Assembly: GCA_016872725.1 (NCBI GenBank)
Contig: VGZC01000018.1
Span: 1-64,000 of the forward strand
From: Planctomycetota bacterium
Lineage (GTDB): Bacteria > Planctomycetota > Planctomycetia > Pirellulales > Pirellulaceae
DNA length: 64,000 nucleotides
Reading direction: 5' to 3'
Shown: in pieces, positions 38,611 to 64,000 of the stretch
Position numbering within the stretch: position 1 is the stretch's first letter
Layout: each line of letters begins with the position of its first letter
Notes under the pieces: model-generated
Told to the model about the DNA's origin: nothing
What the model saw: the letters and a program-made list of their open reading frames with translations, nothing else
Database searches by the model: none
Program-made: the position numbers and the translations under genes

Positions 38611-40974
38611 CTAATTCCGAGGCCCAGCCGGCGGACCGGGAGGAACCGGCCGGGAAGGGCCGACTTCGGCCAAGAGCTTGCCGGGCTTCAACTCTTTGCC
38701 CGATAGGCCCGCGTAGTCCACGTCATACCGGTAGACGCGGAAGATGCCGCCCGGACCGCCACCGGGTCCGCCACGACCGGGCCGAGGTCCGCCTGGAGGT
38801 CCGCCCGCGACGTTCGGAGGACCTTGAGGACGCGGACCACCCGGAGGTCCGCCGGGGCCCCGCCCCAAGGCGTTCCGCATGTCGTCGATCCGCCCTTTTT
38901 GGTCGTCGGTCCAGATCCTGCCAAGCTCTTCCGCGATGAACGCGTGGAGAGCCTTCAACGCGACCTGCTGCGCGTCGGTCAGTTCGAGCGGGCCGACCGC
39001 GAACTCGGGGATGATCTCACCGACCTGCGGCGGTCGAAAACCGCGGAAGCCGGGCCCGCCCGGTCCACCCGCTCCCGAGCCATTCGGCGCATCGGGCGGC
39101 GGCGGCCCGTCGGGTCGCGGCCCACCGGGCCCGAATCCCGGTGGCCCGAACGGCGGTGGGTTGCGGAATTTCTTGAGCTGTTCCTCGTTGAGCAATTGGG
39201 CGACGCGCGCGTCGACGTCCGATTGAAGCCCGTCGATCGCCTTCTTCTGCAATTCACTAAGTCCCAACATGCCTCGCAGGAATTCGGGGACGATCTCGCC
39301 CGGTCGACCGAACGCCATGTTCATCGATGCGCCGGGCAGCTTGAATTGCCATACGATCTTCTTGTCCGGAGTCACCTCGAAGACGACCGCCGAATTGCCC
39401 GAGCAAATCAGCGTGTTGCCGTTGGCAAGGCGCTGCGCGCCGGAAATCAGCATCGAATAGAACGATGCCTTGTCGGGAGCCGCATACGACCAGGTCGCCT
39501 GTTCGGGACCGAACGCGACGTATTCGTCCTTGTCGTAGAGTCCCTTGTCGTTGAGGGGCAGTTCGATTTCGTCGACCGTCGAATAGGTGCCGTCGGGTCG
39601 TTGATTCCCGTTGTTGAAGACCAACATGTGGCCTTCGCCCGGAACGCCCTCGGCGATCCAATGCGCGCAGTGTTGGGCGAACAGGCGTTGATCGGCGTTG
39701 GAACCGCTGCGATAGACACGGGGATTCCCCCACCGATACAAGAGATCGCCGCCGCGCCCCGATTGACCTCCCTTGCTCGTCGCCGCCTCCTCCGAAGTCG
39801 TACTGTGGTCGATGACCCAAACCTCGCTCAATTCGTGGACGCTGACCATGATCTGATCGAGCTTGGGATTGTAGGTGATTGAATTGAAATGAAGCCAATC
39901 GCCGGTCATCGGACTCGCGCCGACTCGACCGTTCGGTCCACCGGGACCATTCGGTCCACCGGGACCATTCGGTCCACCGGGCCCATTCGGTCCACCAGGC
40001 CCATTCGGTCCACCGGGCCCATTGGGTCCACCGGGCCCCGGACGGGCGGCGTCGTTTCGGTTTCCGCCCGGACCCCGACGCGCGTTGCCCGTGTCGCCCC
40101 GAGGTCGATCGCCGGGCCGAGCGTTGGGATCGGCATTCCCGGCGTTTCTCGGGCGGGGCGCGTTGGGGTCGGGTTTGACGTCGCCGTCGGCCGCCGGTGT
40201 TCCGCCGCCGACATAGCCGAGCGACCGCAATTGGGCCAATTGTTTGGGATCGGCCATCATGCGGTCCATCCTGTGCGTGCTGAAGTTGACGTCGATCCGC
40301 TCGGGGCGTTCCGATACGTCTCCGTAATTGGGTTTGTTCTTGTCGACATCCTGAACCAGATGATCCCATGCGGACCATTGCCAAACGACTTCGCCCGTCG
40401 TGGGCCCCGTCGGTTTGATTTCGAAAATGCACTCGGACACGATTTGCCCTGGAACCGTATCGGGGCGTCGGCCGGCGGCGACGGCGTCCTCGACGGTGCG
40501 AGGGTCCCACACGATCGCCAGGACGTTTCCGTTGGGGAGCGGGCAAACATCATGGTGGGGACGGCGTTTCGCTGTGCCGAACGAGTAGTCCCACACCAAT
40601 TCGCCTTCCCAGTTGAATTCCTGAATGCGTCCGCCCGCTCCCGGGCCGTCCATGCCCATGCCTCGTTCGGCGCCGGGCCGAAGCAAATGACCGTTCTTGA
40701 GCAGGTAGGCGCAGAGCGCCGGAGTGTAGTCGCTCTTCCATTCGTGAACGATGCGGCTGTCCATGTCGATCAGGTAGGTCGATGTCGAGTTCATCGGCGT
40801 GATCAGCGTATATCCCGCATGGGCGCCCGGCTCATGAATCGATAGGCCATCCTTGACTTGAGGCGGCGCGCCTTGGGACGGCGGCCCCGGCGGGAGGGGC
40901 TGCGCATGCACGGCGATCCAGCCGACGAGACCGGCCAATGCGGCGGCCGCCGCGATTCGTACACGACCGTTCAT
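38611..40974 (-). CDS. Arylsulfotransferase (ASST)-like secreted protein with collagen-like repeat
   Basis: A 787-aa protein with a Sec signal peptide ([18 protein letters not shown]). Two propeller-type parts of the aryl-sulfate sulfotransferase family are visible: [15 protein letters not shown] with [15 protein letters not shown], and [19 protein letters not shown] with [20 protein letters not shown]. They are split by a low-complexity block (about 290-375) containing six GPGGPN repeats. A C-terminal region (about 575-760) is again Gly/Pro-rich with short EF/helix-like elements. Catalytic transfer between phenols is known for classical ASST; here the function is inferred, and it may simply be a propeller binding protein. 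The start ATG at 40974 has GGAG upstream. First gene of the minus-strand cluster. Confidence 0.75.
39932..40039 (-). repeat. 18-bp tandem repeat coding for collagen-like GPGGPN units
   Basis: Six head-to-tail copies of an 18-bp unit (plus-strand form TTCGGTCCACCGGGACCA, with 1-3 substitutions among copies). On the minus strand it encodes consecutive Gly-Pro-Gly-Gly-Pro-Asn units between the two propeller parts of the ASST-like protein. Copies 1 and 2 are identical, which points to recent slippage. Confidence 0.95.
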
Positions 40975-45200: not shown

Positions 45201-45266
45201 GGTGACGATACTGTTGGTGACGATACTGTAGGTGACGATACTGTAGGTGACGACACGGTAGGTGAC
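45201..45266. repeat. 15-bp tandem repeat in divergent promoter region
   Basis: Four full copies of GGTGACGATACTGTA (first ends TGTT, fourth is GGTGACGACACGGTA) plus a partial fifth (GGTGAC). They lie 52 nt upstream of the DinB-like gene start and ~104 nt upstream of the divergent membrane-protein gene. Copies 2 and 3 are identical. No coding role is evident; iterated binding sites for a regulator are possible. Confidence 0.95.
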
Positions 45267-45369
45267 TAGATCCGATTGGTCAACATTCCGCATCGGTCCG
45301 AGGCACGGCCCCCCGGAGTCGCTCGGTTCGCCGGAGAATACCAATCTACCAATAGCGAGGTCGCGCGCC

Positions 45370-46014
45370 ATGACGATGTCCACGGTCTTCACCATTCTCG
45401 CCGTGATCGTGGGATTCGGTCTTTCGATGGCGGCCATGTCCCTTCTCGCCGTATCCCTGTTTCCGCACTGGATGGACCGGGCCTCCGGGCGATTGTCGAC
45501 CATGCCGCGCCGCACGTTCCTGACCGGGCTCGTCATCGGTGGCGTCTTCCTTGCCGTCAGCGTGGGGACGCTGCGAGGCGGCGGACCTTGGGGCCTGGTC
45601 GGCGGCGTGCTCGCCGCGCTGACGGCCGGGTTCGCGCTGTTCGGTTCGTCCGCCGTCGCCCGATCGATCGGGGTCGGTCTGCCGTCACCGGCGGACGAGA
45701 GCCGTCCCTGGAGACGGATCGTGAGGGGGTGGATCGTCCTTGCCCTGGCGTGCCTGTTCCCCGTTCTCGGCTGGTTCGTCATCTTGCCCGCCGCGCTTCT
45801 CATGGGTTTTGGCGCCGCGTGGCTCGCCCTCTTCCGGCGGCCTGTGTCCGAGTCGGACGACTTGGGTCCGTCGAGCGACGCGTTTGCGGCCAAGATCCGT
45901 TTGGGCCAAGCGAACAGCATGCGTGAACCCGCGAGCGGACCGATCGTCGCGGACGGGCGCCGATTGAACGGCGACTCGACCGCCGAGCCGTCCGGCGCGA
46001 AGGAGCTCGCGTGA
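45370..46014 (+). CDS. Small membrane protein of unknown function
   Basis: A 214-aa protein with about five hydrophobic segments: an N-terminal FTILAVIVGFGLSMAAMSLL, two near FLTGLVIGGVFLAVSVGTL and GPWGLVGGVLAALTAGFALF, and two more (WIVLALACLFPVLGWFVIL). The last ~60 residues are soluble, acidic and Ser-rich. I do not recognise the family. Its stop overlaps the start of the DUF1800 gene (TGATG), so it is translationally coupled to the DUF1800/DUF1501 pair and may anchor or accompany it. The ATG at 45370 has a GAGGT upstream; an ATG two codons later is also possible. Confidence 0.7.
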   Translation: MTMSTVFTILAVIVGFGLSMAAMSLLAVSLFPHWMDRASGRLSTMPRRTFLTGLVIGGVFLAVSVGTLRGGGPWGLVGGVLAALTAGFALFGSSAVARSIGVGLPSPADESRPWRRIVRGWIVLALACLFPVLGWFVILPAALLMGFGAAWLALFRRPVSESDDLGPSSDAFAAKIRLGQANSMREPASGPIVADGRRLNGDSTAEPSGAKELA

Positions 46015-47546
46015 TGCCGCTCGACCGACGTCAACTCGTCACGCTCGGCGCGGCCGCCGGCACGGCGCTCGCGTCGGGGTGTTCCGACGCGCCCGCCTGG
46101 AATCTCCTGGCTCGGCGACTCGAGTCGCGGCCCGCGGACGTGCGCCTGCCGCGCGGCGACGCGGTGGAACCCGCCGCGCGTCTTCTCAACCGGCTCGGAT
46201 GCGGTTGGCGGCCCGGTGAGCTCGACGAAGTCCGCGCGAAGGGGATCGACGCCCACATCGAGGAACAACTCGCGTACGAGGCGATCGATGATGCGCCGTG
46301 CTCGATTCGCGCGGCGCGGTTCGAGACCATCGAGTCGTCACCGGGCGACATTTTTGAATATCGCAAACAGGTTGTCGAACGCGAACTGTTCCAACATACG
46401 ATGCTCCGCGCGGTGTACAGTCGGCGCCAGCTCTACGAGACGATGGTCCGGTTTTGGACCGACCACTTCAACATCAGCCTTGGCAAGGGCGACTGTGCCT
46501 GGTTCAAGACGGTCGACGATCGGGCGGTCATCCGCCCGCACGCGATGGGGAACTTCGGGGACTTGTTGCGAGCCTCGGCGCTCAGTCCCGCCATGCTCGT
46601 TTATCTCGACGGCAAGGACAACCAAGAGGCGTCGGGCGCCGATGGCCCGAACGAGAACTACGCGCGCGAATTGCTCGAACTGCATGCGCTCGGCGTGCAT
46701 GGCGGCTACACGCAGCGGGACGTCATGGAGGCCGCGCGCTGCCTGACCGGTTGGACGATCGACGCGTCGTGGTTTCGCGGACGTGTGGCGTTTCGCGGCG
46801 ATCGGCACGACGGGGGAGAGAAGCGCGTGCTCGGCCAGGTGATCCCCGCCGGGCTCGGTGACGCGGACCTCGATCGACTGCTCGACATCGTCATCCGGCA
46901 TCCCGCGACGCCGCGGTACATCGCCGCGAAACTCTGCCGCAAATTCGTCGGCGACGCGCCGCCCCCGGAACTGATCGAGCGGGCGGCCGAATCGTTCCGC
47001 GCGTCCGACTACGCGATCCGACCGATGGTGCGGACGATCCTCGCGTCCGACGCCTTCCGCGATCCCCGCGCTTCGCCGTCGCACCAACGCCTCAAACGGC
47101 CCTTCCGGTTCGTCGCCTCCGCGCTCCGCGCGCTCGACGCCGATACGGACGGCGGCGATCGGCTCCGCGAATGGCTGCAGCGGATGGGCCATGCGCCGTT
47201 CAACTATCCGACGCCCGACGGATATCCCGACGAACCCGGACCCTGGCTCGGTTCGCTCCTGTGGCGATGGAATTTCGCCATTGAGTTGGCGTCGAACGGG
47301 ATACCCGGCACGCGCGTGGATCTTGCCGGAGTGGCCCGGCTGTGGCGAGCGGACGCGTCGAGCGATCCGAGCGGAGATTGGGCCGCGCACGTGCTGGGCC
47401 GCCGCATGGCGCCCGACGAGGCCGAGGCGATGCGGCTGCTTGCGGCGAATCCGTCGCAATCCGCGGATCGCGGCGCGACGCACGACCATGATGCGCCGCT
47501 CGCCGCCGCCCTCGCACTCGCATCGCCCGCATTCCAGAAGTATTGA
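46014..47546 (+). CDS. DUF1800 domain protein (short form)
   Basis: A 510-aa DUF1800 protein of unknown biochemical role, typical of planctomycetes, where it is almost always next to a DUF1501 gene. It has an RRQLVTLGAAAG leader (Tat-like, ending in a possible lipobox ASGC), then the domain core: ARLLNRLGCGWRPGELDEVR, FWTDHFNISLG, the conserved GPNENYARELLELHALGVHG GY stretch, and CLTGWTIDASWF. Unlike the two copies at the right end it lacks the Ala-rich helical N-terminal domain. The GTG at 46011 is an alternative start. It is coupled to the membrane-protein gene upstream. Confidence 0.9.
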   Translation: MPLDRRQLVTLGAAAGTALASGCSDAPAWNLLARRLESRPADVRLPRGDAVEPAARLLNRLGCGWRPGELDEVRAKGIDAHIEEQLAYEAIDDAPCSIRAARFETIESSPGDIFEYRKQVVERELFQHTMLRAVYSRRQLYETMVRFWTDHFNISLGKGDCAWFKTVDDRAVIRPHAMGNFGDLLRASALSPAMLVYLDGKDNQEASGADGPNENYARELLELHALGVHGGYTQRDVMEAARCLTGWTIDASWFRGRVAFRGDRHDGGEKRVLGQVIPAGLGDADLDRLLDIVIRHPATPRYIAAKLCRKFVGDAPPPELIERAAESFRASDYAIRPMVRTILASDAFRDPRASPSHQRLKRPFRFVASALRALDADTDGGDRLREWLQRMGHAPFNYPTPDGYPDEPGPWLGSLLWRWNFAIELASNGIPGTRVDLAGVARLWRADASSDPSGDWAAHVLGRRMAPDEAEAMRLLAANPSQSADRGATHDHDAPLAAALALASPAFQKY

Positions 47547-47650
47547 ACGTGTACCAGGCCACTCCTGTTGGCGGACCGCAAGGTGGATCGGAAGTCGCGA
47601 ATGGCGAATCGTCCCGGAAAAGAAACGCTTCGCGGGATCGGAGCGCGACG

Positions 47651-48838
47651 ATGGGCATGACGCGTCGAAGGGCCTTGCGTTTGTGGATGGCGGGTTCCGA
47701 ACGTCCCGAGCCGCGCGGCGTCCTGGTCAACCTCTTCCTGCGCGGCGGCGCGGACGGGCTGAACCTGGTGCCGCCCCACGCCGAGGACGCGTACTATTCG
47801 GCCAGGCCGAGCCTCGCGATCGCGAGGCCCGATGGGCGGTCGGACGATCGTTCCAAGACGGCCATCGACCTCGACGGTTTCTTCGGCCTTCATCCGGCGC
47901 TGCGTCCTCTGAAGCCGCTCTATGACGGCGGGCAACTCGCCATCGTCCACGCCGTCGGCTCGGACGATCGGACGCGTTCGCATTTCGAAGCCCAGGACTT
48001 GATGGAACGCGGGGGCGCCGCCGGTCGGAACCCCGGGTCGGGATGGCTCGCGCGGCACTTGCGGACGCGTGCCGAGTCGGGAACGCCGCTCGCGGCGGTC
48101 GCGATCGGCGAGACGATCCCCGAATCGCTGCGCGGCGCGCCGGGCGCGAGCGCGGTGCGGCGCGTCGACGCCTTCTCGATTCAATTGCCGCCGGACCGCC
48201 GCGCGACGTTCGACCGGGCGCTCCATCGACTTTATGAAGCGGAGGGCGGCCAGCTCGGCGCGGCCGGACTGCAGGTGCTCGAATCGGTCGCCGCCATGAA
48301 TCGGCTCGACGCGTCCGAAGGCGAGTCCCATTCGGGAGCGGCGTATCCCGAAGGCGAACTCGGCGACGCTCTGCGGCAAGTGGCCCGGTTGATCCGCGCG
48401 CGGGTCGGCCTCGAGATCGCGTGCGTCGAACTCGGAGGATGGGATACCCATTTCGTGCAGGCCACGTTGTTTGGTTCGCTCGCCGGCGCGTTGGCCCAGG
48501 GTCTCGCGGCGTTCGCGGCGGATCTCGCGTCGGATTGGAATCGGACCACGATCGCGGCGATGACCGAGTTCGGGCGTCGGGTGCGCGAGAACGTGAGTTT
48601 AGGGACCGATCACGGCCGAGCCGGCGTGATGTTTGTTCTGGGCGGAGGCGTCCGCGGCGGCCGCGTGATCGCCGATTGGCCCGGTGTCGCCGCCGATCGG
48701 CTCGAAGGTCCCGGCGACGTGCGCGTCACGACCGACTACCGCGACGTGCTCGGCGAAATCGTCGCGGTCCGGCTCGGCAACGAGCGGGTCGCCGAGGTCT
48801 TTCCGGGCCACACGGTCCGTCCGATCGGCATCGTCTGA
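47651..48838 (+). CDS. DUF1501 domain protein
   Basis: A 395-aa DUF1501 protein, distantly related to the sulfatase/alkaline-phosphatase fold by family knowledge but of unknown function. Motifs: VLVNLFLRGGADGLNLVPPH near the start, LHPALRPLKPLYDGGQLAIV, VELGGWDTHF, MTEFGRRVRENVSLGTDHGR, and a C-terminal YRDVLGEIVAVRLG. The N-terminus (MTRRRALRLWMAG) is a short RR leader without a long hydrophobic stretch, so export is less certain than for the right-end copies. The ATG at 47651 has GGAG upstream; the frame is open back to 47543, just past the DUF1800 stop. It is the partner of the preceding DUF1800 gene. Confidence 0.9.
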   Translation: MGMTRRRALRLWMAGSERPEPRGVLVNLFLRGGADGLNLVPPHAEDAYYSARPSLAIARPDGRSDDRSKTAIDLDGFFGLHPALRPLKPLYDGGQLAIVHAVGSDDRTRSHFEAQDLMERGGAAGRNPGSGWLARHLRTRAESGTPLAAVAIGETIPESLRGAPGASAVRRVDAFSIQLPPDRRATFDRALHRLYEAEGGQLGAAGLQVLESVAAMNRLDASEGESHSGAAYPEGELGDALRQVARLIRARVGLEIACVELGGWDTHFVQATLFGSLAGALAQGLAAFAADLASDWNRTTIAAMTEFGRRVRENVSLGTDHGRAGVMFVLGGGVRGGRVIADWPGVAADRLEGPGDVRVTTDYRDVLGEIVAVRLGNERVAEVFPGHTVRPIGIV

Positions 48839-50934: not shown

Positions 50935-51263
50935 GGTTTCGTTCTCCTCGTCGTTTTGATGGTCCCCGCGCACAGCCTTCGTCAAGACCGCCGTCCTCGA
51001 AACCGCCGTCCTCGAAACCGCCGTCCTCGAAACCGCCGTTCTCGAAACCGCCGTTCTCGAAACCGCCGTTCTCGAAACCGCCGTCCTCGAAACCGGAGCG
51101 TCGTTTCGCCGGACGAAAAAAAACGCCGCGTACGACGGACCGGCTCCCCGCGCGGATCTTGACAAGGCAAGTCCAGTCTATCAACTTGGCCGATCAATGG
51201 ATAGTCTGAGGCCGACGCCGAAGGATCCCCAAGCGGGGTCCGGACAGGGGAAGGAGAGTCCGC
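50935..51263. other. Divergent promoter region between oxidoreductase and DUF4242 genes
   Basis: About 330 bases between two divergent starts. It holds the 15-bp repeat array (50986-51095), a run of seven A near 51120, and a perfect TTGACA at 51159-51164 on the plus strand without a convincing -10 at normal spacing. No gene is seen. Confidence 0.55.
50986..51095. repeat. 15-bp tandem repeat in divergent promoter region
   Basis: Seven full copies of AACCGCCGTCCTCGA (first starts GACC; copies 3-5 have CGTTCTCGA) and a partial eighth, ending 169 nt before the DUF4242 gene and starting 52 nt before the oxidoreductase start on the other strand. The near identity of copies suggests recent expansion. 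Confidence 0.95.
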
Positions 51264-52738: not shown

Positions 52739-53527
52739 ATGCCGATCGCGAAACACGCCCCAGGCCCCGCACCCGTTCGACGGCTTCCCCGCCGCCCGTT
52801 CGCCGCGCTCGGAGCCGCCGCCGCGCTCGGAGCCGCCGCCGCGCTCGGAGCCGCCGCCGCGATGGCGGCCATCGCCCTCACGCATGGTCCATCCGCCCGC
52901 GCCGAACAACCGGCGTATGTCGCCATGTTCAACGGAGTCGACCTGACCGGCTGGGAAGGACAGCCCGGCTGGTGGTCGGTTCGGGACGGAGTCCTGTTCG
53001 CGGAGAGCACGGCGGAGAAGCCGTGCGCGAGGTCGCACTATTTGTATTGGAAGGGCGGGGAACCGGCCGACTTCGACCTCCGCTATTCGTTCCGCATCTC
53101 CGCCGAGGGAAACTCGGGGATCCAATTCCGCAGTGAGCGGCGGCCCGAGTGGGACACGTGGGGTTATCAGGCCGACATGGACGGCGCCGGGGTGTACATG
53201 GGTTGCCTTTACCAGCACGAGAGGGGCCTGGTCGCGGAACGGGGCCAAAAGGTCCGGATCAACGAATCGGGTGAGAAGGCGATCGAGACGTTCGCGGACA
53301 AGGCCGAGCTGCTGCGTTCGGTGCGCCCGCTCGAATGGAACACGGCGCGGATCGTCGCGTCCGGACCCCGCGTTTCCATCTGGATCAACGGCGTCCTGAT
53401 GTGCGAGGTCGAGGACCATCAACCGCGGCTGGGGCTGCGCAAAGGCATCATCGCCCTGCAAATGCACCAGGGCCCGCCGATGAAAGTCGAATACCGCGAC
53501 ATGAAGATCCGAGTGGACCGATCCTAG
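52739..53527 (+). CDS. DUF1080 (3-keto-disaccharide hydrolase) exported protein
   Basis: A 262-aa jelly-roll (concanavalin-like) protein of the DUF1080/3-keto-disaccharide hydrolase family. Characterised members cleave or bind 3-keto-glycosides. Sec-type leader 1-56 with an unusual Ala/Leu/Gly repeat (AALGAA three times). Mature domain: FNGVDLTGWEGQPGWWSVRD, then SGIQFRSERRPEWDTWGYQA, and closing GIIALQMHQGPPMKVEYRDM, all standard for the family. It sits just before an exported oxidoreductase that could make the 3-keto sugar. The ATG at 52739 has GGAG upstream; the longer open frame to 51860 overlaps the URO-D gene. Confidence 0.9.
   Translation: MPIAKHAPGPAPVRRLPRRPFAALGAAAALGAAAALGAAAAMAAIALTHGPSARAEQPAYVAMFNGVDLTGWEGQPGWWSVRDGVLFAESTAEKPCARSHYLYWKGGEPADFDLRYSFRISAEGNSGIQFRSERRPEWDTWGYQADMDGAGVYMGCLYQHERGLVAERGQKVRINESGEKAIETFADKAELLRSVRPLEWNTARIVASGPRVSIWINGVLMCEVEDHQPRLGLRKGIIALQMHQGPPMKVEYRDMKIRVDRS
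52805..52858 (+). repeat. 18-bp tandem repeat in DUF1080 leader
   Basis: Three exact copies of GCGCTCGGAGCCGCCGCC, in frame, encoding three Ala-Leu-Gly-Ala-Ala-Ala units of the signal-peptide core. Loss or gain of one unit changes the hydrophobic length by six residues. Confidence 0.9.
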
Positions 53528-56091: not shown

Positions 56092-56120
56092 TTGACATTT
56101 GAATCGCGCGGGTGTATACG
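56092..56120 (+). promoter_or_regulatory. Sigma-70-like promoter of the DUF1800/DUF1501 array
   Basis: TTGACA (56092-56097, perfect -35) and TATACG (56115-56120, 4 of 6 to TATAAT) are separated by 17 nt. It lies in a locally AT-rich stretch of an otherwise GC-rich region and points at the DUF1800 gene, whose ATG is 340 nt downstream. It is the best promoter match I found in the window. Confidence 0.6.
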
Positions 56121-56132
56121 TAAACACAATAA

Positions 56133-56148
56133 ACAAAGTCGACTTTGT
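56133..56148. promoter_or_regulatory. 16-bp palindrome, probable operator
   Basis: ACAAAGTCGACTTTGT is a perfect inverted repeat without a loop. It sits 12 nt after the -10 box, so at or just after the expected transcription start, the usual place for a repressor site. One perfect 16-bp palindrome is expected by chance in 64 kb, so its position, more than its existence, is the evidence. Confidence 0.45.
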
Positions 56149-56459
56149 GCGACGATTGCCGAGCCGCAGGGAAACGGCGGGCACGTTCGCCGACCGACAC
56201 TCCCGCCTGGTTCGACACACCCATCGGGCACCCGCCCGTTTTCGCGCGAACAGGAATGTTCCGCCGCCAAACACAACGGCACCCGCCACCTTATCGAGGC
56301 CCGCATGGTTGCGAATGTTCACGAGATGGGGTCGGTGAGGGGGCGGATCCGCGTTCCCCGGCATCGGCGCATCACGTTCGCCGGGCGCTCGGCGCGTTTC
56401 GAGAAGATGACGGTGTTGGAGCCCCTGTTTGGAAACATGTCGGTGGAGGCAGGCGTTCG

Positions 56460-59171
56460 ATGAGAGCGATCGAGCAAGAATCGAGCGTGGCGCGAATGGC
56501 GGCCCGAATGGCGGCCCGAATGGCGGCCCGAATGGCGGCCCGGATCGACGGCAGGGACCGATGGAAGGGCGACGCGGGCGTCGGTCGGTCGAGTTTGTCC
56601 GCGATGGCGGGAGGTGACAACGGGCCGTCGCGCTCGGCGATCGCGATGGTGTTGTCGGCGTCGGTGTTCGCCTCGTTCGCGGCACCGGCGGGCGAAGCGC
56701 GGGGTTGGCAGCCGAGCGGGGCGGCGGCCGAGGATCCGGTGAAGCGTGCCGAGGCGGCCGCGGCGAAAGCGGCGGCCGACAAGGCAGCCGCCGAAAAGGC
56801 GCTCGCCGCCGCGGTCGCGGCCGAAAAAGCCGCCGCCGAACAGATGGCGGCCGCGCAAGAGTCGGCGAAGATCTCGGCCGTCAAAGCCGCCGCGCTGAAG
56901 GAAGCGACCGCCCGCGTGGCCGCTCGCCGAACCGCGCTCGAAAGGGCGATCGCCGACGTCGCCGCGAACGACGCGGCGCGCAAGGGCGAATTCACCGATC
57001 GGGCCGTACGGGAGAAGGTGGCCCGCGATGAGGGGGCGATCGAGAAGGCCAAGGCCGATTTGGCCGACGCTCAGAAGGTACTCGAGGACAAGAAATCGGC
57101 GACCGAATCGGCGCGCGGCGCGACGCAGGCCGCGCTCGACGCCTCCAAAACGGCGCCCGACGATACGGCGAAAGGACGCGCCGCCGAAACGGCGCGGACG
57201 GCCCAGGATCGCGCCGAACGCGATCAGGCCAACGCCGTGACGGCCGCCCGGTCGATCGACGTGTCGTTGCGGGCCCTCACGACCGAACTGGCGGCCGGCA
57301 AGGATGTCCTCGCGCTCATCGACAAGGTCGAGGCCGCGAAAAACGGCGGTCCCGCGCTCGACGCCGACGCGGCCCGCAGAGCCAATCAAACGATCGACGC
57401 GTTCAAGACCGCCGCGCTCACCCAGGCGATCGACCTCGAGCGGGCGGCGCACGAAAAGGCCGTCGCCGACCGGACGGCCGCCGAACGCCTCTTGCCCCAA
57501 CGCGCCGCCGCGGTCGAAACGGCGCGGGGAAAACTCGGTGCCGCGAAGGCCGCCGCCGAAATACTCGCCGCCGACGCGCCCGCCGACAAGCGGTCGGCCG
57601 CCGAACAGGCGGTCGCCGCCGCGACCGCGGCCGTCGAATCGGCCGCCGCCGAGGAGCGTGCGACCCGCGAGGAATTGGAGAAGATCGGGCCCCGAATCCG
57701 CGAGTCCCTCGCGCGCTACCACGAAACACTCGCGCTCGTCCAAAGCGGGTTGCCCCTCCTTCCCGCCGACCAGTGGGATTACGCCAAGGCCCGCCATCTG
57801 CTCGTGCGCGCGGGTTTCGGCGGATCGTCCGACGAAATCGAACGGCTGCATGCGATGGGCCTTCACGCGGCCGTCGAGTACCTCGTCGACTACGATCGGA
57901 TCGAAGCGCTCGATCTCCCGTTCCACGCCGTGCTCCCCGAACCGGCGATCCCCAACGAAAACCGGTTGGCGTCCATGCGGCAGCGGGAAATGACCGATCG
58001 GCGGCGCAACGCCGATACGCGGCAGCAGGCCGCGCTCCGCGATTGGTGGATCGAACGCATGGTGCGCACCCCGCGTCCGCTCGAGGAAAAGCTCGTCCTG
58101 TTCTGGCACGGACATTTCGCGACCGAATACCAGACGGTGCGCGACAGCTACGCGCTCGCCATGCAAAACGACCTGCTTCGCGAACATGCGGTGACGAGCT
58201 TCGCCGCGCTGCTCCACGGCATCGTTCAGGATCCCGCCATGCTGCGGTATCTCGACAACAACAGCAATGTGAAGGGCCGCCCCAACGAAAACCTCGCCCG
58301 CGAGATCATGGAGTTGTTCGCGATGGGGGAGGGTAATTACACCGAAAACGACATCATGGAAGGAGCGCGGGCGTTGACCGGATATACGTATGATCCGGCG
58401 ACGCGGCAGTTCCGGTTCGTCGTTTCCCGGCACGACACCGAAAACAAAACGATCTTCGGGCGCACGGGCGATTTCGCGGGCGACGATTTCGTCGACTTGA
58501 TCCTCCAGCAGCCGTTCACCGCGCCGTTCATCGCGGGCAAGGTTTTTGGGTTCTTCGCGCACGATGCGCCGAGCGAGGAAACGGTGACGCGTTTGGCCGG
58601 CGTACTCCGGACGCATCAATACGACTTGCGGCCGATGCTCAAGAATCTGTTCATGTCGCGGGAGTTCTACAGCGAGTCGGCCGTCGCGACGCAGATCAAG
58701 AGCCCCGTGCAACTCGTCGTCGGAACGCTCCGGGACCTCGGCATCCGGGATGTTGCCTACGGACCGCTCAGCGCGGGAATGACGGCCATGGGCCAGGAAC
58801 TTTATGGGCCTCCCAACGTCAAGGGATGGGAAGGCGGCGAGTATTGGGTGAATGCGAACCGCGTGTTCGTCCGTTACAACGGCATCGCCGATCTGATCGA
58901 CAATATCGCCGTTCCGAACCAACCGCGGGGCCTGGATCTGGTCGGCGCGCTCGAGGGCCGCGTGTTGAATTCGCCCGAGGAAGTGGTCGACTATCTCGCG
59001 CGAAGCTGCCTCGCCGTGCCGCTGCCGGACGAAAAACGCAAGATCCTGATCGATCGGTTGGGCGGCCTTCCGCCGAGCGCCGACTGGAGCGGCCAGCGCG
59101 CCCAGGTGAACGCGAGATTGCGGACGATTCTGGTTCTGATGATGAGTATGCCCGAGTTCCAGTGCACGTGA
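56460..59171 (+). CDS. DUF1800 protein with long Ala-rich coiled-coil N-terminal domain
   Basis: A 903-aa protein. Residues ~13-28 carry a MAAR repeat, ~62-85 a hydrophobic leader (AIAMVLSASVFASFAAPAGE), then ~93-425 an Ala/Glu/Lys-rich helical region (AAAKAAADKAAAEKALAAAV and similar) that should form long coiled coils. The DUF1800 domain covers ~437-900: AKARHLLVRAGFGGSSDEIE, LFWHGHFATEYQTV, GRPNENLAREIMELFAMGEG, ALTGYTYDPATRQFRFVV and MLKNLFMSREFYS. Function unknown; the architecture suggests an exported, elongated protein, perhaps a surface scaffold. Start codon choice is open because four ATGs in the repeat, and one at 56604, are in frame. It is followed by a DUF1501 gene. Confidence 0.88.
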   Translation: MRAIEQESSVARMAARMAARMAARMAARIDGRDRWKGDAGVGRSSLSAMAGGDNGPSRSAIAMVLSASVFASFAAPAGEARGWQPSGAAAEDPVKRAEAAAAKAAADKAAAEKALAAAVAAEKAAAEQMAAAQESAKISAVKAAALKEATARVAARRTALERAIADVAANDAARKGEFTDRAVREKVARDEGAIEKAKADLADAQKVLEDKKSATESARGATQAALDASKTAPDDTAKGRAAETARTAQDRAERDQANAVTAARSIDVSLRALTTELAAGKDVLALIDKVEAAKNGGPALDADAARRANQTIDAFKTAALTQAIDLERAAHEKAVADRTAAERLLPQRAAAVETARGKLGAAKAAAEILAADAPADKRSAAEQAVAAATAAVESAAAEERATREELEKIGPRIRESLARYHETLALVQSGLPLLPADQWDYAKARHLLVRAGFGGSSDEIERLHAMGLHAAVEYLVDYDRIEALDLPFHAVLPEPAIPNENRLASMRQREMTDRRRNADTRQQAALRDWWIERMVRTPRPLEEKLVLFWHGHFATEYQTVRDSYALAMQNDLLREHAVTSFAALLHGIVQDPAMLRYLDNNSNVKGRPNENLAREIMELFAMGEGNYTENDIMEGARALTGYTYDPATRQFRFVVSRHDTENKTIFGRTGDFAGDDFVDLILQQPFTAPFIAGKVFGFFAHDAPSEETVTRLAGVLRTHQYDLRPMLKNLFMSREFYSESAVATQIKSPVQLVVGTLRDLGIRDVAYGPLSAGMTAMGQELYGPPNVKGWEGGEYWVNANRVFVRYNGIADLIDNIAVPNQPRGLDLVGALEGRVLNSPEEVVDYLARSCLAVPLPDEKRKILIDRLGGLPPSADWSGQRAQVNARLRTILVLMMSMPEFQCT
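56496..56543 (+). repeat. 12-bp tandem repeat at the DUF1800 N-terminus
   Basis: Four copies of ATGGCGGCCCGA (last ends CGG), in frame, encoding Met-Ala-Ala-Arg four times. Each unit carries its own in-frame ATG. Confidence 0.93.
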
Positions 59172-59236
59172 CCCGTGGCGCGAGAAACGCATGGCGCGCA
59201 CACCGCGTGTTGTGCGAGACGAGTGGAGGATAGCGT

Positions 59237-60514
59237 ATGACGTCCCGAATCGACATTGCGACGCGGCGTTCGTTTCTGACCCGGGGGCTCGGCGTCGTGG
59301 GAATCGCGGCCGGCGCGCGGGCTGTCGTGCCGGACTTTCTCGTGCGCACCGCGCTCGCGGGGGACCGTTCGGTCTCCGATCAGAAGATCCTGGTCGTGCT
59401 CCAGCTCAGCGGCGGCCATGACGGCCTGAGCGCCATCGTGCCGTACGGCGACGACGCCTACGCCAAGAACCGGCAGGCGTCGCGCATTCCGGAGAGCGAC
59501 GTGCTCAAGATCGACGACTATTCCGGTCTGCATCCAAACCTCACGGCCTTCAAAAACCTGCTCGACGCGGGCCATTTCGCGGCCGTGCAGGCGGTCGGTT
59601 ATCCGACGCCCAATCAGAGCCACTTCACGTCGATGGACATCTGGCATCTCGCCGACAACGAAGCGCGCAGCAACAGCACGGCCAAGGAGAGCCGGTTTGG
59701 TTGGATCGGCCGATACTGCGATCTGGCGTGCAAAGACGCGCCGAATCCTCCGATGGCCATTTCGCTCGGAACGGGTCAGACTCCCCGCGCGCTCAACGGA
59801 CGGCTCAGCCCGGGCATCAGCTTCAGCCAGCCGCAATCGTTCCGATATCTCGGCGATCGCGGCAACAAGGAACGAGCGGAGGCGTACGGGAAGATGCACG
59901 AGACGACGCCGACGGGCCGTTCCCACGCGCTGGACTTCGTGACGCGGACGGCGATCGACGCGAACGCGGCGAGCTCGGCGATCCGCGACCTCGCCGGCAA
60001 ATACAAGACGGCCGTGACCTATCCCAACGGCTCGCTCGCCGCGTCGCTCAAGACGGTCGCCGCGCTCGTCGCCGGCGGATTGAGCACGCGGGTCTACTAC
60101 GTGTTCCAGGGCGGCTACGACACGCACTTCATTCAGAAGAGCCGCCACGACGCGCTCATGGCCGAGCTGGGTGCGTCGGTCGGCGCGTTCCAGCAGGATC
60201 TGGCCTCGCAAGGCGACGCGCCGCGCGTGCTCACGATGACGTTCAGCGAGTTCGGTCGGCGCGTCACCGAGAACGGGAGCCAGGGCACCGACCACGGCAT
60301 CGCCGGACCGATGTTCCTGGTCGGTCCCGGCGTGAAGCCGGGCCTGCACGGCGAACCTCCGAGCCTCGAGCCGGATCGATTGGTCGCCGGGCGCGATTTG
60401 CAACACAAGATCGATTTCCGCGGCGTCTACGCCGCCGTGCTCGAGAAGTGGCTCGGCTGTCCGAGCGAGCCTGTGCTCGGCGGCACCTTCGAGCCGGTCG
60501 ACTGCATCGCGTAG
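59237..60514 (+). CDS. DUF1501 domain protein, Tat leader
   Basis: A 425-aa exported DUF1501 protein, partner of the preceding DUF1800 gene. Leader TRRSFLTRGLGVVGIAAGAR ends around residue 40. Core motifs: LVVLQLSGGHDGLSAIVPYG (55-74), DDYSGLHPNLTAFKNLLDAG, AVGYPTPNQSHFTSMDIW, GGYDTHFIQKSRHD, FSEFGRRVTENGSQGTDHG, and a final FRGVYAAVLEKWLGC. All family hallmarks are intact. The ATG at 59237 has GGAGG upstream. It follows the DUF1800 gene after 65 bases and precedes the next by 24 bases, so the four genes are likely one transcript. Enzymatic role unknown; the HDGLS and THF motifs recall metal sites of the alkaline-phosphatase fold. Confidence 0.93.
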   Translation: MTSRIDIATRRSFLTRGLGVVGIAAGARAVVPDFLVRTALAGDRSVSDQKILVVLQLSGGHDGLSAIVPYGDDAYAKNRQASRIPESDVLKIDDYSGLHPNLTAFKNLLDAGHFAAVQAVGYPTPNQSHFTSMDIWHLADNEARSNSTAKESRFGWIGRYCDLACKDAPNPPMAISLGTGQTPRALNGRLSPGISFSQPQSFRYLGDRGNKERAEAYGKMHETTPTGRSHALDFVTRTAIDANAASSAIRDLAGKYKTAVTYPNGSLAASLKTVAALVAGGLSTRVYYVFQGGYDTHFIQKSRHDALMAELGASVGAFQQDLASQGDAPRVLTMTFSEFGRRVTENGSQGTDHGIAGPMFLVGPGVKPGLHGEPPSLEPDRLVAGRDLQHKIDFRGVYAAVLEKWLGCPSEPVLGGTFEPVDCIA

Positions 60515-60538
60515 GTTCCTTACACGAGGGTTCGGGTC

Positions 60539-62851
60539 ATGAAACGACGAGTATCGATGTGGCTGGGGATCGCCGGCGCGGTGGCGCTTTGGGCGGTCGG
60601 CGGCTTGCGGGCTGACGAGCCCACGCCCCTGCAAACGGCCGAGGAAGCCGCCAAGAAGGCGGTGGCTTCCGAGGAAGTGATGCAAAACGAGTGGAATTCG
60701 CGCGAGATGGCCCGATCCGCGACGCGTGAAATCGCGCGGGTCGAGCGGTCCCGTTCCGAAAGCGCGGTCGCCGATTATCGGCGGGCCATCGAAGGTGTGA
60801 CGGCGGCGGAAGCGGCGGCGAAGGCTGCGCGGGCGGCGGCCGACGGCGAACCAGACGCGGCCAAGAAGACGCCGCTCGTCGAAACGGCGAACCAGGCCGA
60901 CGCGGCCGTGGCGGCCGCGAAGGCGAATCTCGAACAGCGGCTCGCCGCCATGCACGCGGCGCTCGATCGGTTGATCGAGGATTCGGTGGCGGGCGAGCGG
61001 GCCGCCAACGAACTGCTCGTGTCGGAGAACGGGCTGCGGGACAAGATGGCCGAATCGCGCGCGGTCGAATTGAAAGTCCTGGAGATGAAGGCGGCCTCCG
61101 CCGATGCGGCGTCCGTCGACGCGGCGAAGCGGGCCATCTTCGAAATGCAGGCCGTGCAGTTGTGGGAACGCCAGCTTTGGGCCGGTGTGCAGCAGGGTAC
61201 GCTCGGCCAGATCATCGAAATGACCGACCATGCCGGGCGGATCGCCGCCGATGCCGCGACGATCGAACCCGACGCGGCGCGCAAGAAGACGCTCGAGGAA
61301 TTCGCGCAGCGCGAAACGAAGGGCAAGACCGACGCCGAGAAAACGAACGGCGAATGCGCGGCGATCGTGGCGAAAGCCATTTCCGAGATCTATCCGCTGC
61401 GCGCGGCCGCCATGGGCGGATTGACTCCCCTCGCGCCCGAGAAATGGGACCTTGCGAAGGCCCGCCATCTGCTGGTCCGCGCCGGATTCGGAGGCACGCC
61501 GCAGGAAGTCAAGAACCTGCATGCGATGGGACTTTACGCCGCCGTCGATCACCTCGTCGATTTCCATCGGCAGGCCCCCGCGCCCGCTTCGCTCGATGTC
61601 ATCCCCGTGCCCCTCCCCGATCCGCTCGAAGGCAAGCTCCGCAACGCGTTCGTTCGCGGCCAGGCGGCGGGCGCCCGGAACTCGATCGACGGCGGTCAGT
61701 TCGGAGCTCTTCGCCAATGGTGGATCAAACGCATGGTCGCCTCGCCGCGACCCCTGCAGGAGAAACTGACCCTGTTCTGGCACGGGCACTTCGCCACCCA
61801 GCAAAGCGTCGTCCAGAACACGTATATCCTCTATCACCAGAACCAGCTCTTCCGCGAACACGCGGCCGGCAATTTCGGCGGTCTGCTCTACGGCATCGTC
61901 CACGATCCGGTGATGATCCGGTACCTCGACAACAACCTGAACGTGGTCGGTCATCCGAACGAGAATCTCGCCCGCGAAATCATGGAACTGTTCGCGATGG
62001 GCGTCGACCAAGGCTACACCGAGCACGACATCCGCGAGGCGGCTCGGGCACTCACCGGCTATACCTATGACAACGCGACCGGCCAGTTCCGCTACGTGCT
62101 CAAGAGCCACGACCCCGGCGACAAGACGATTTTCGGAAAGACGGGTCCATGGACGGGTGACGATCTGGTCAACCTGCTGCTCGAACAGCCGTCGACGGCC
62201 CGTTTCATCAGTTTCAAGTTGTACGAGTACTTCGTGAAGAAGGATCCCGCGCCGGAAGTCGTCGACAAGATGGCGACCGTGTTGCGGACCAACCAATACG
62301 AACTGAATCCAATGCTGAAGAATCTCTTCCTTTCCGAGGAATTCTACAGCGACGCCGCGATGGGGACCCAGATCAAGAGCCCCGTGCAGTTGGTGGTCGG
62401 CATGCTCCGCGACCTGGGCGCGAAGGAGGCGACCAACTTCGGCCAGATCGACGGCATGATTCAGGAGATGGGGCAGCAGTTGTTTGAGCCGCCCGATGTG
62501 AAGGGATGGCGGTACGGCCGGTCCTGGATCAGTTCGAACCGCGTCTTCTCGCGATACAACGCGGCGGCGACGCTCGCGAACTCGGTGCCCCTGGCGAGCG
62601 GCGCTTCGGGTGTGGACCTTGTCGGCTTGCTGGCGACCGAGGAGTGCAAGACGGCGGAGGACGTGATCCAATGCCTCGCGAAGGTCTGCCTCGCCAAGCC
62701 GCTCAACGACGAGCAGCGCGCCAAGCTTGTCGCGTACCTGGGACAACTGCCGCCGCAAGCCGAATGGGCGGGGCAGAAGGACGCCATCAATGCGAAACTG
62801 AGGAACGTGCTCGTGCTCCTGTTGTGCACACCCGAATACCAGGTGACCTGA
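60539..62851 (+). CDS. DUF1800 protein with shorter Ala-rich helical N-terminal domain
   Basis: A 770-aa paralogue of 56460-59171. A clear Sec leader (MWLGIAGAVALWAVGGLRAD) is followed by a helical Ala/Glu-rich region of about 270 residues (AEEAAKKAVASEEVMQNEWN and similar), then the DUF1800 domain at ~302-768 with AKARHLLVRAGFGGTPQEVK, LTLFWHGHFATQQSVVQNTY, GHPNENLAREIMELFAMGVD and ALTGYTYDNATGQFRYVLKS. The two DUF1800 domains align throughout, whereas the helical domains differ in length and sequence. Start ATG at 60539, GAGG upstream. It is flanked by DUF1501 genes on both sides. Confidence 0.92.
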   Translation: MKRRVSMWLGIAGAVALWAVGGLRADEPTPLQTAEEAAKKAVASEEVMQNEWNSREMARSATREIARVERSRSESAVADYRRAIEGVTAAEAAAKAARAAADGEPDAAKKTPLVETANQADAAVAAAKANLEQRLAAMHAALDRLIEDSVAGERAANELLVSENGLRDKMAESRAVELKVLEMKAASADAASVDAAKRAIFEMQAVQLWERQLWAGVQQGTLGQIIEMTDHAGRIAADAATIEPDAARKKTLEEFAQRETKGKTDAEKTNGECAAIVAKAISEIYPLRAAAMGGLTPLAPEKWDLAKARHLLVRAGFGGTPQEVKNLHAMGLYAAVDHLVDFHRQAPAPASLDVIPVPLPDPLEGKLRNAFVRGQAAGARNSIDGGQFGALRQWWIKRMVASPRPLQEKLTLFWHGHFATQQSVVQNTYILYHQNQLFREHAAGNFGGLLYGIVHDPVMIRYLDNNLNVVGHPNENLAREIMELFAMGVDQGYTEHDIREAARALTGYTYDNATGQFRYVLKSHDPGDKTIFGKTGPWTGDDLVNLLLEQPSTARFISFKLYEYFVKKDPAPEVVDKMATVLRTNQYELNPMLKNLFLSEEFYSDAAMGTQIKSPVQLVVGMLRDLGAKEATNFGQIDGMIQEMGQQLFEPPDVKGWRYGRSWISSNRVFSRYNAAATLANSVPLASGASGVDLVGLLATEECKTAEDVIQCLAKVCLAKPLNDEQRAKLVAYLGQLPPQAEWAGQKDAINAKLRNVLVLLLCTPEYQVT

Positions 62852-62977
62852 TACCAGGTGAACGGTTCCAGGCGCCCGAATGGACAAACGCGCTCGGCGG
62901 GGCACCCGCCTCGGGCCGGGACGAAAACGGTTGGACCCTCTCGATGTCAGGCTTAACTTTGTGAACGAGGATGGTAT

Positions 62978-64000
62978 ATGTCGAATCCACGTATCGTGAC
63001 GCGGCGCGAGGCTTTGACGCGCGGCATGGGGATGGTCGGCGTCGGCGCCGCACTTCCGAATTTCCTGCTCAAGACGTCGCTTGCCGGACCGGAGACCTCG
63101 CCCGATCACAAGATCGTGGTCGCGCTCGCCCTGATCGGCGGCCATGACGGGCTCAGCACGGTCGTACCGTACGGACACAAGGAATACTACGACCTCCGGA
63201 AGGTGACGCGGATCGAGGAAAAGGACGTTTTGAAGCTCAACGAGGAGGTCGGCCTGCATCCGAATCTCGCCGGCTTCAAGAACCTGCACGACGAGGGCAA
63301 GCTCTTGACGGTGCTCGGAACGGCCTTTCCGAACTACAACCTCAGCCATTTCACGTCGCGGGACTTCTGGGAATCGGCGACGGCCAAGGACACGACGGGG
63401 AAGGAGGGTTCGACCGGCTGGCTCGGCCGGTACGTCGATTACGCCTGCAAAGGCATCGACGACCCGAAGCTCGCCGTCGCCGTCGGGCCGGGCCGGCACC
63501 CGCTCATCATCACGGGCAAGGACCACCCCGGCATCGCGTTCAACACGCCCGACACGTTTTCGTTCCGCGGAGAGGGCTCTCCGGCGGGGAAGGCCGTCTA
63601 CCGCGAACTGAACGAACTTTCGAAGAACTGCCCGAGGAACGGCGATGATCTGTTCATCACGCAGACGGCGATCAACGCGAACGCCGCGAGCGAGACGATC
63701 CGCGAACTCGTCAGCGGATACTCGACGAATGTCGAGTATCCCGACACGCAGTTCGGCAATTCGCTGAAGACGATCGCCGGATTGATCGGGCGCGGCCTGA
63801 GCGCCCGCGTCTATTACGCGGCGCAGGGCATTGCCGTCTTTGGCGGTTATGACACGCACGTCGACCAGCCTCGCCGTCACGGGCAGTTGATGGACGAGCT
63901 TTGCCAATCGGTGTGCGCGTTCCAAAAGGATTTGGCGGCGCAAGGAAACGCCGACCGGGTCCTGACGTTTACGTTCAGCGAGTTCGGACGCCGAGCGAAG
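62978..64000 (+). CDS. DUF1501 domain protein, Tat leader (3' end outside window)
   Basis: The first 341 codons of a DUF1501 protein paralogous to 59237-60514. Leader TRREALTRGMGMVGVGAALP; core KIVVALALIGGHDGLSTVVP, EEVGLHPNLAGFKNLHDEGK, YNLSHFTSRDFWESA, FGGYDTHVDQPRRHGQ and, at the edge, TFSEFGRRAK. The frame continues past 64000, so about 80 residues are missing. The ATG has GAGG upstream and lies 126 bases after the DUF1800 stop; that gap contains a direct repeat of TACCAGGTGA (near 62839 and 62853). The array may continue with further copies beyond the window. Confidence 0.93.
   Translation, partial: MSNPRIVTRREALTRGMGMVGVGAALPNFLLKTSLAGPETSPDHKIVVALALIGGHDGLSTVVPYGHKEYYDLRKVTRIEEKDVLKLNEEVGLHPNLAGFKNLHDEGKLLTVLGTAFPNYNLSHFTSRDFWESATAKDTTGKEGSTGWLGRYVDYACKGIDDPKLAVAVGPGRHPLIITGKDHPGIAFNTPDTFSFRGEGSPAGKAVYRELNELSKNCPRNGDDLFITQTAINANAASETIRELVSGYSTNVEYPDTQFGNSLKTIAGLIGRGLSARVYYAAQGIAVFGGYDTHVDQPRRHGQLMDELCQSVCAFQKDLAAQGNADRVLTFTFSEFGRRAK

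Follow-up and report, generated by a model that had tools for sequence, protein, structure and literature searches.

The stretch analyzed here (the window) comprises 64,000 nucleotides of a Planctomycetota bacterium of the Pirellulaceae (GenBank assembly GCA_016872725.1, contig VGZC01000018.1, positions 1 to 64,000), and its end carries a tandem array of genes of the DUF1800 (PF08811) and DUF1501 (PF07394) families, both of which are, to our knowledge, widespread and without known function. The array lies on the forward strand at 56604-64000 in the order DUF1800, DUF1501, DUF1800, DUF1501, with intergenic gaps of 65, 24 and 126 base pairs (bp), and continues beyond the window, whose end cuts the last gene. 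Together with the nod-type gene that follows, it forms a same-strand cluster of five genes, four of which lie in the window (Table 1). The two head-to-tail pairs with short gaps that the original prediction had described were confirmed by Pfam matches, all DUF1800 and DUF1501 proteins of the window scoring well above the gathering cut-offs (26.1 for PF08811 and 27 for PF07394); the match spans were 56496-59168 and 60539-62848 for the armed DUF1800 genes and 59237-60511 for the first DUF1501 gene. The array start given earlier, 56092, proved to be merely the first start codon of the open frame. The ATG at 56604 precedes a signal-peptide-like segment and was adopted, with 56460, 56496 and 56145 as possible alternatives, of which 56460 was favored by a codon-usage script. 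Both DUF1800 proteins of the array consist of a signal-peptide-like segment, a long helical domain (the arm), a linker and the DUF1800 domain. A third pair without an arm was also found as described.

Table 1 Features of the DUF1800-DUF1501 array and of the genes considered with it. Positions are those of the window unless a contig is named.
Feature	Position	Strand	Evidence or remark
DUF1800 protein 1, armed, 855 residues	56604-59171	+	PF08811 382.6 bits; start by signal-peptide-like segment
Arm of protein 1, 344 residues, 33% Ala, heptad-periodic	56712-57743	+	1/200 shuffles reach the observed periodicity
DUF1501 protein 1, 425 residues, twin-arginine motif	59237-60514	+	PF07394 93.9 bits
DUF1800 protein 2, armed, 770 residues	60539-62851	+	PF08811 413.7 bits
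Arm of protein 2, 266 residues, four long helices	60617-61414	+	Heptad periodicity; AlphaFold model; arm-A family of 19 tree rows
DUF1501 protein 2, cut by window end	62978-64000, to C18:64238	+	PF07394 85.7 bits; read whole as L058:7979-9235
nod-type gene, outside the window, 89 bp past the array	C18:64328-66823	+	qNOR-like
Unarmed DUF1800 of third pair	46011-47546	+	PF08811 406 bits
DUF1501 of third pair	47543-48838	+	PF07394 109 bits

The product of the gene downstream of the array resembles the quinol-dependent nitric oxide reductases (qNOR; PF00115, E 3.2e-44; PF22085, E 7.2e-38). In an alignment with relatives, HN stood in place of the FeB pair HH and Q in place of the catalytic E, so the HH pair and catalytic Glu of canonical qNOR are missing, and a plain nitric oxide (NO) reductase was dropped as an assignment because of these substitutions. 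HN and Q occurred together in 28/28 nod-type genes (the downstream gene and 27 relatives), and HH with E in 24/24 of the other qNOR genes aligned. Ettwig et al. (PMC3413370) give three changes for a putative NO dismutase, FeB His replaced by Asn, the catalytic Glu replaced by Gln, and a lost quinol site, and the two substitutions are those of the nod proteins of Methylomirabilis oxyfera and strain HdN1. The name nod-type is used here for qNOR-like genes that carry the two substitutions. No NCBIfam family was matched by the four nod-type proteins scanned. At 70% identity or more, the subtype next to the array was present in 4 of 396 genomes of the order, other matches being at most 38% identical. 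In Planctomycetota, nod was already known from two metagenome-assembled genomes of Scalindua (PMC10359470). The gene could instead encode another NO-binding or NO-reducing qNOR variant that the DUF1800-DUF1501 pair serves. One account (PMC13386854) states that no nod protein has been characterized biochemically and that opposing results exist, and our assignment rests on the two substitutions; the presence of both published substitutions in every nod-type gene argues the other way, and we consider such a variant possible but somewhat unlikely.

The association of nod-type genes with DUF1800-DUF1501 pairs was observed repeatedly. Among the nine genomes found to encode armed DUF1800 proteins, six carry a nod-type gene, and in five of these a pair adjoins it: an armed one in the genome of the window (G000), KLAP164, PLA5 and Gw_Inlet_196, and an unarmed, convergent one in ARS15. 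No pair was found near the nod-type gene of ARS1434. A second, independent set, drawn from the phylum, comprised 20 further nod-type loci, and at 10 of them a pair lay in the flanks. Eight of these ten pairs were on the same strand; measured between open frames, nine were within 100 bp and the tenth was about 2 kb away. At canonical qNOR loci the count was 0/20, with controls that came from one order and were not matched for DUF1800 number. The difference was significant both by locus (Fisher, 0.0004) and by genus (6/13 vs 0/18, 0.002). For the second set, 20 of 27 genomes were used, G000 and G570 (the same contig place as ARS1434) having been set aside from 29; the omission of G709, G625 and G540 followed no rule, and G731, G647, G525 and G435 stood lower in the list. 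The controls were 20 of the 69 genomes with only the canonical type and were chosen for long contigs. At three nod-type loci (L292, L299, L310) and one control (L314), one of the two flanks was short. All ten pairs of the second set were unarmed, and with that of ARS15, 11 of the 15 linked pairs lack an arm; hence the arm was rejected as the link to nod, and it is the pair that tracks the nod-type gene. This linkage, a property of the pair rather than of the arm, is the strongest new result of the analysis. The nod-type genes of G067 and G161 lie on short contigs that carry no pair; G067 also has, at the end of another contig, a DUF1800 fragment 66% identical to an armed core of PLA5.

Searches of the open PMC literature, where DUF1800 is mentioned in 4 papers, DUF1501 in 10 and both in 2, gave no earlier description of nod next to DUF1800-DUF1501, supplements and subscription journals being outside their scope. 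In M. oxyfera, pmoA-C are found near nod (PMC13386854), whereas here the neighbors are DUF1800-DUF1501 genes. What nod-derived oxygen serves in organisms other than methane and hydrocarbon oxidizers is described in that paper as an open question, and the nod neighborhoods examined there gave no clear oxygen-consuming system. The repeated linkage offers a specific candidate partner both for the nod-type protein and for the two families of unassigned function, and its recurrence in related bacteria provides a testable lead on what the nod-type enzyme works with.

An AlphaFold model of DUF1501 protein 1 (62-row alignment; predicted local distance difference test score, pLDDT, 86.3) matched structures of the alkaline phosphatase superfamily, with VIA Z 19.8 for 7cba (root-mean-square deviation 3.4, 251 residues aligned) and 19.7 for 7mw8 (3.1, 241 residues) and a best Foldseek E of 9.4e-7. 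The protein therefore models as a member of this superfamily, to which nucleotide pyrophosphatases and sulfatases belong, but it differs from known members in that identity was 11-14% in the structural matches listed and the nucleophile was not located. Invariant in all 62 rows were R10, R11, D62, S128, H129, D295, H297, E338, D352 and H353, and of these D62, D295, H297, E338, D352 and H353 are, on the alignment, candidate metal ligands. R10 and R11 form a twin-arginine near the N-terminus, an invariance favored by the fact that many row starts were chosen by script near R-R or K-R. A sequence search of the PDB returned one match for the DUF1501 protein (E 0.77, taken as chance) and none at E<=10 for the DUF1501 profile. 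In the DUF1800 core, E408, Q434, N474-E475-N476, R479-E480, E483, D497, D525, K529 and others were identical in 100% of 77 rows. From their pattern in the alignments, the invariant polar residues of both families suit active sites.

The DUF1800 core may have relatives among known Planctomycete modules. In a PSCyt2-PSD1 protein (L086) the PSD1 region matched the DUF1800 profile at 258-418 with E 1.1e-5 and 25.3 bits (cut-off 26.1), and a DUF1501 gene comes after it. This match and this gene order suggest a possible distant relationship between DUF1800 and PSD1, with DUF1501 as their common partner. Similar weak partial DUF1800 matches were also present in other relatives, of which L086 alone was scanned. 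Conversely, the DUF1800 proteins of the window gave no match to PF07583 or PF07587 at cut-off, the best PSD1 score being 14.1 bits (cut-off 28.5) for the protein at 46 kb. The PSCyt2-PSD1/DUF1501 modules of Planctomycetes (DUF1549-DUF1553) resemble the array in that a DUF1501 gene follows, there after a PSD1-bearing protein, but they carry a PSCyt2 domain where the window proteins have an arm or nothing. Adjacent genes of the same two Pfam families, with a twin-arginine DUF1501, lie beside chitin synthase genes in Proteobacteria (PMC5122149); those pairs are linked to chitin synthase, and the part of the article available to us mentions neither an arm nor a nod-type gene.

The arms form a conserved family of their own. 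As the original prediction had proposed, they are Ala-rich and exported, judging for export from the signal-peptide-like segment ahead of them, and they differ in length and sequence (about 330 and 270 residues were expected) while the DUF1800 domains align: the cores of proteins 1 and 2 were 56% identical over 468 residues and the arms 32% over 261. Arm and core are joined by GGLxPL or SGLPLL followed by WDxAKARHLL, where the DUF1800 domain begins. Hydrophobic periodicity of 3.5-3.6 residues was detected in 15 arms (12 from the genome of the window and three from PLA5), the observed value being reached by at most 10 of 200 shuffles for each arm. The best match of each window arm was its KLAP164 ortholog, at 48% over 245 residues for arm 1 (E 2e-46) and 62% over 266 residues for arm 2 (E 3e-89). 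After shuffling within heptad register, 0/450 arms matched another arm at E<1e-5. Some of the B arms cannot be aligned, since 7 of the 45 real arms had no match or only a weak one. In the AlphaFold model of protein 2 (77-row alignment, pLDDT 90.9, predicted template modeling score 0.81) the core is mainly helical, and the arm consists of helices at 30-102, 107-187, 190-242 and 246-291, with block pLDDT of 81-96 over residues 31-290. Predicted long helices together with heptad periodicity fit a stalk or coiled coil, and the outcome that would have refuted the original prediction, disordered arms that do not recur in the family, was not obtained. In a structure search, all matches of the whole model of protein 2 were to generic helix bundles (VIA Z 11.5 at best; none at E<=0.001 in Foldseek), a match list that the arm filled and that speaks for the arm and not for the fold of the DUF1800 core. 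Sequence searches of the PDB with protein 2 and with the DUF1800 profile gave nothing at E<=10.

Across its 5.24 Mb and 100 contigs, the genome of the window has 18 DUF1800 genes, one of which accounts for two of the 19 matches, and a DUF1501 gene comes after every one of them (18/18); 12 of the 18 are armed, with arms of 152-638 residues. In a search of 40 genomes PLA5 (G032), of the same order, had six DUF1800 matches and the other 38 relatives 0-3, weak partial ones included. In all, 45 armed proteins were found in nine genomes: 12 each in G000 and KLAP164, six in CSMAG_116, five in UBA7890, three each in PLA5 and Gw_Inlet_196, two in ARS15 and one each in ARS1434 and Baikal-G161. CSMAG_116, UBA7890 and Gw_Inlet_196 are Verrucomicrobiota, and five of the other six are Planctomycetota or Gemmataceae. 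Orthologs with matching arms are scattered over Planctomycetota and Verrucomicrobiota, and arm A is rare, occurring in 2/396 genomes of the order and 1/392 of the phylum. The arms thus represent a separate conserved stalk family, with paralog-specific lengths, common to two phyla.

A tree was built from 48 core rows; 27 DUF1800 rows below 500 bits on our own profile were dropped, including five of the six unarmed genes of the window's genome, and two unarmed PLA5 genes were not entered. The armed proteins formed one clade with weak support (85/58), a grouping that rests on three unarmed rows, the low-scoring ones having been left out. In the tree, arm A formed a single group of 19 rows (99/98). 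Comparison across paralogs revealed a characteristic length for each ortholog group, with arms counted from the hydrophobic segment and thus a few residues off the lengths in Table 1; examples are 267/264/267, 255/256, 280/285, 268/271, 266/266/270, 643/644/642 with 733 and 829, 196/193, and 191/185/174. Two orthologs disagreed, window protein 1 (353 vs 497 in KLAP164) and another (160 vs 127). In 13 ortholog pairs the arms were 41-75% and the cores 73-86% identical. On contig C335, KLAP164 carries both pairs in identical order, and the window proteins group with their KLAP164 counterparts (100/100 and 100/99); the tandem therefore predates the divergence of the two genomes, and a recent duplication was rejected from the tree.

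The original prediction saw in these genes a possible structural scaffold, a surface or envelope lattice of DUF1800 and DUF1501 whose arms set the spacing. What stood of this are the arms, which are exported, helical, heptad-periodic and conserved, with a fixed length per ortholog group and many paralogs in one genome. No sign of a structural scaffold was found, the protein 2 model having matched only helix bundles; most DUF1800 genes of relatives are unarmed (as open frames), and no lattice was evident in anything examined. The superfamily fold of DUF1501 and the dense invariant polar residues of the DUF1800 core make both partners look like enzymes instead. We accordingly prefer an exported, stalked enzyme module over a passive scaffold, which we rate as very unlikely.

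We propose, as the likeliest reading, that each pair is an exported enzyme module, probably periplasmic. DUF1501 would leave the cytoplasm by twin-arginine translocation and act as an alkaline-phosphatase-superfamily enzyme, with DUF1800 as its obligate, presumably contacting partner, itself equipped with an active site. The arm would be a stalk from the export end of DUF1800 to its core, setting the distance from the membrane or driving self-association, and each paralog would keep its own length. The module would work with the nod-type protein, a putative NO dismutase, and perhaps be co-transcribed with it, in low-oxygen, NO-linked metabolism. We regard this reading as evenly balanced between right and wrong. 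Several observations count against it: three of the nine armed genomes lack a nod-type gene at the threshold used, and 10 of the 20 further nod-type loci lack a pair in the flanks examined, so that each can do without the other; there is no tie between nod and the arm as such; the usual Ser/Thr nucleophile of the superfamily was not found in DUF1501; and NO dismutation by nod proteins is disputed (PMC13386854). A bolder version, in which DUF1800-DUF1501 is in Planctomycetota and relatives a dedicated NO dismutase partner that uses the oxygen or NO the nod-type protein handles and in some lineages has expanded to a dozen stalked paralogs with set arm lengths and defined membrane distances, seems to us a distinctly improbable extension.

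The neighborhood suggests a further explanation, envelope defense, in which low oxygen or NO would induce the pairs together with the nod-type gene and the pairs would repair or remodel the envelope without acting on NO or oxygen. Some neighbors of the nod cluster fit this, among them genes for Crp/Fnr, truncated globin, ferredoxin-like and Ser/Thr kinase proteins, as does a gene for the iron-sulfur repair protein RIC (TIGR03652, 244.7 bits, cut-off 204.7) some kb from the C9 armed locus. Once the Crp/Fnr genes had been noticed, we searched the 220 bp ahead of each start for TTGA-N6-TCAA, which we take to be an FNR-type box. It preceded 4/5 armed genes in UBA7890 and 2/3 in Gw_Inlet_196 (6/8 together, in two Verrucomicrobiota), and the remaining gene of the latter lies downstream of a nod-type gene that has a box ahead. 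These boxes speak for envelope defense and for our proposal alike. At the unarmed DUF1800 genes of these genomes it occurred at 1/8, and at a second one a box precedes DUF1501, which there comes first. Genome-wide the two had 86 and 73 sites, against 41 and 16 for reversed-pattern controls. A stretch of about 70 kb in UBA7890 (G403:C13:127-198 kb; L280-L283) holds 11 boxes, an armed pair, a RIC-type gene, a CtaA gene and several HZS_alpha-like exported proteins. In the other seven genomes the box was found at 0/37 armed upstreams, the 12 of the window's genome included, and CSMAG_116 has 188 sites genome-wide, yet 0/6 at its armed genes; both results also tell against our proposal, and the box was not borne out as a general regulator. 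That the pairs directly abut nod-type genes but none of 20 canonical qNOR genes is a specificity beyond what one would expect of a shared stress response, and envelope defense is in our judgment unlikely.

Some minor features were recorded alongside these genes. In five of six genomes (L267, L269, L270, L271, L272) the nod-type gene has a Ser/Thr kinase gene in its vicinity, with sigma-like or ferredoxin-like genes between. Both G000 and KLAP164 have DUF6807, ferredoxin-like and RIC genes at a distance of some kb from DUF1800 pairs (L046:11866-14565, L222:88-2628). The motif CGCG-N3-CGCG, picked after looking, occurs in 7/12 armed upstreams of the window's genome, a count reached by 6/1000 random-segment draws. 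The protein at 45262-46014, which the original prediction took for a membrane protein accompanying the third pair, matched no Pfam family at cut-off, Pfam being the only means by which its membrane character was examined. The DUF1800 protein next to it has at its start an RR motif together with LASGC, which resembles a lipobox, and may be a lipoprotein. An antisense open frame of 1696 residues (L058:3992-9082, reverse strand) crosses the array and is probably a by-product of high-GC codon usage. Short tandem repeats of 12, 15 and 18 bp occur at 45201-45266, 50987-51095, 52801-52861, 56489-56542 and 39932-40038, and a 12-bp repeat array lies directly ahead of the start of DUF1800 protein 1.

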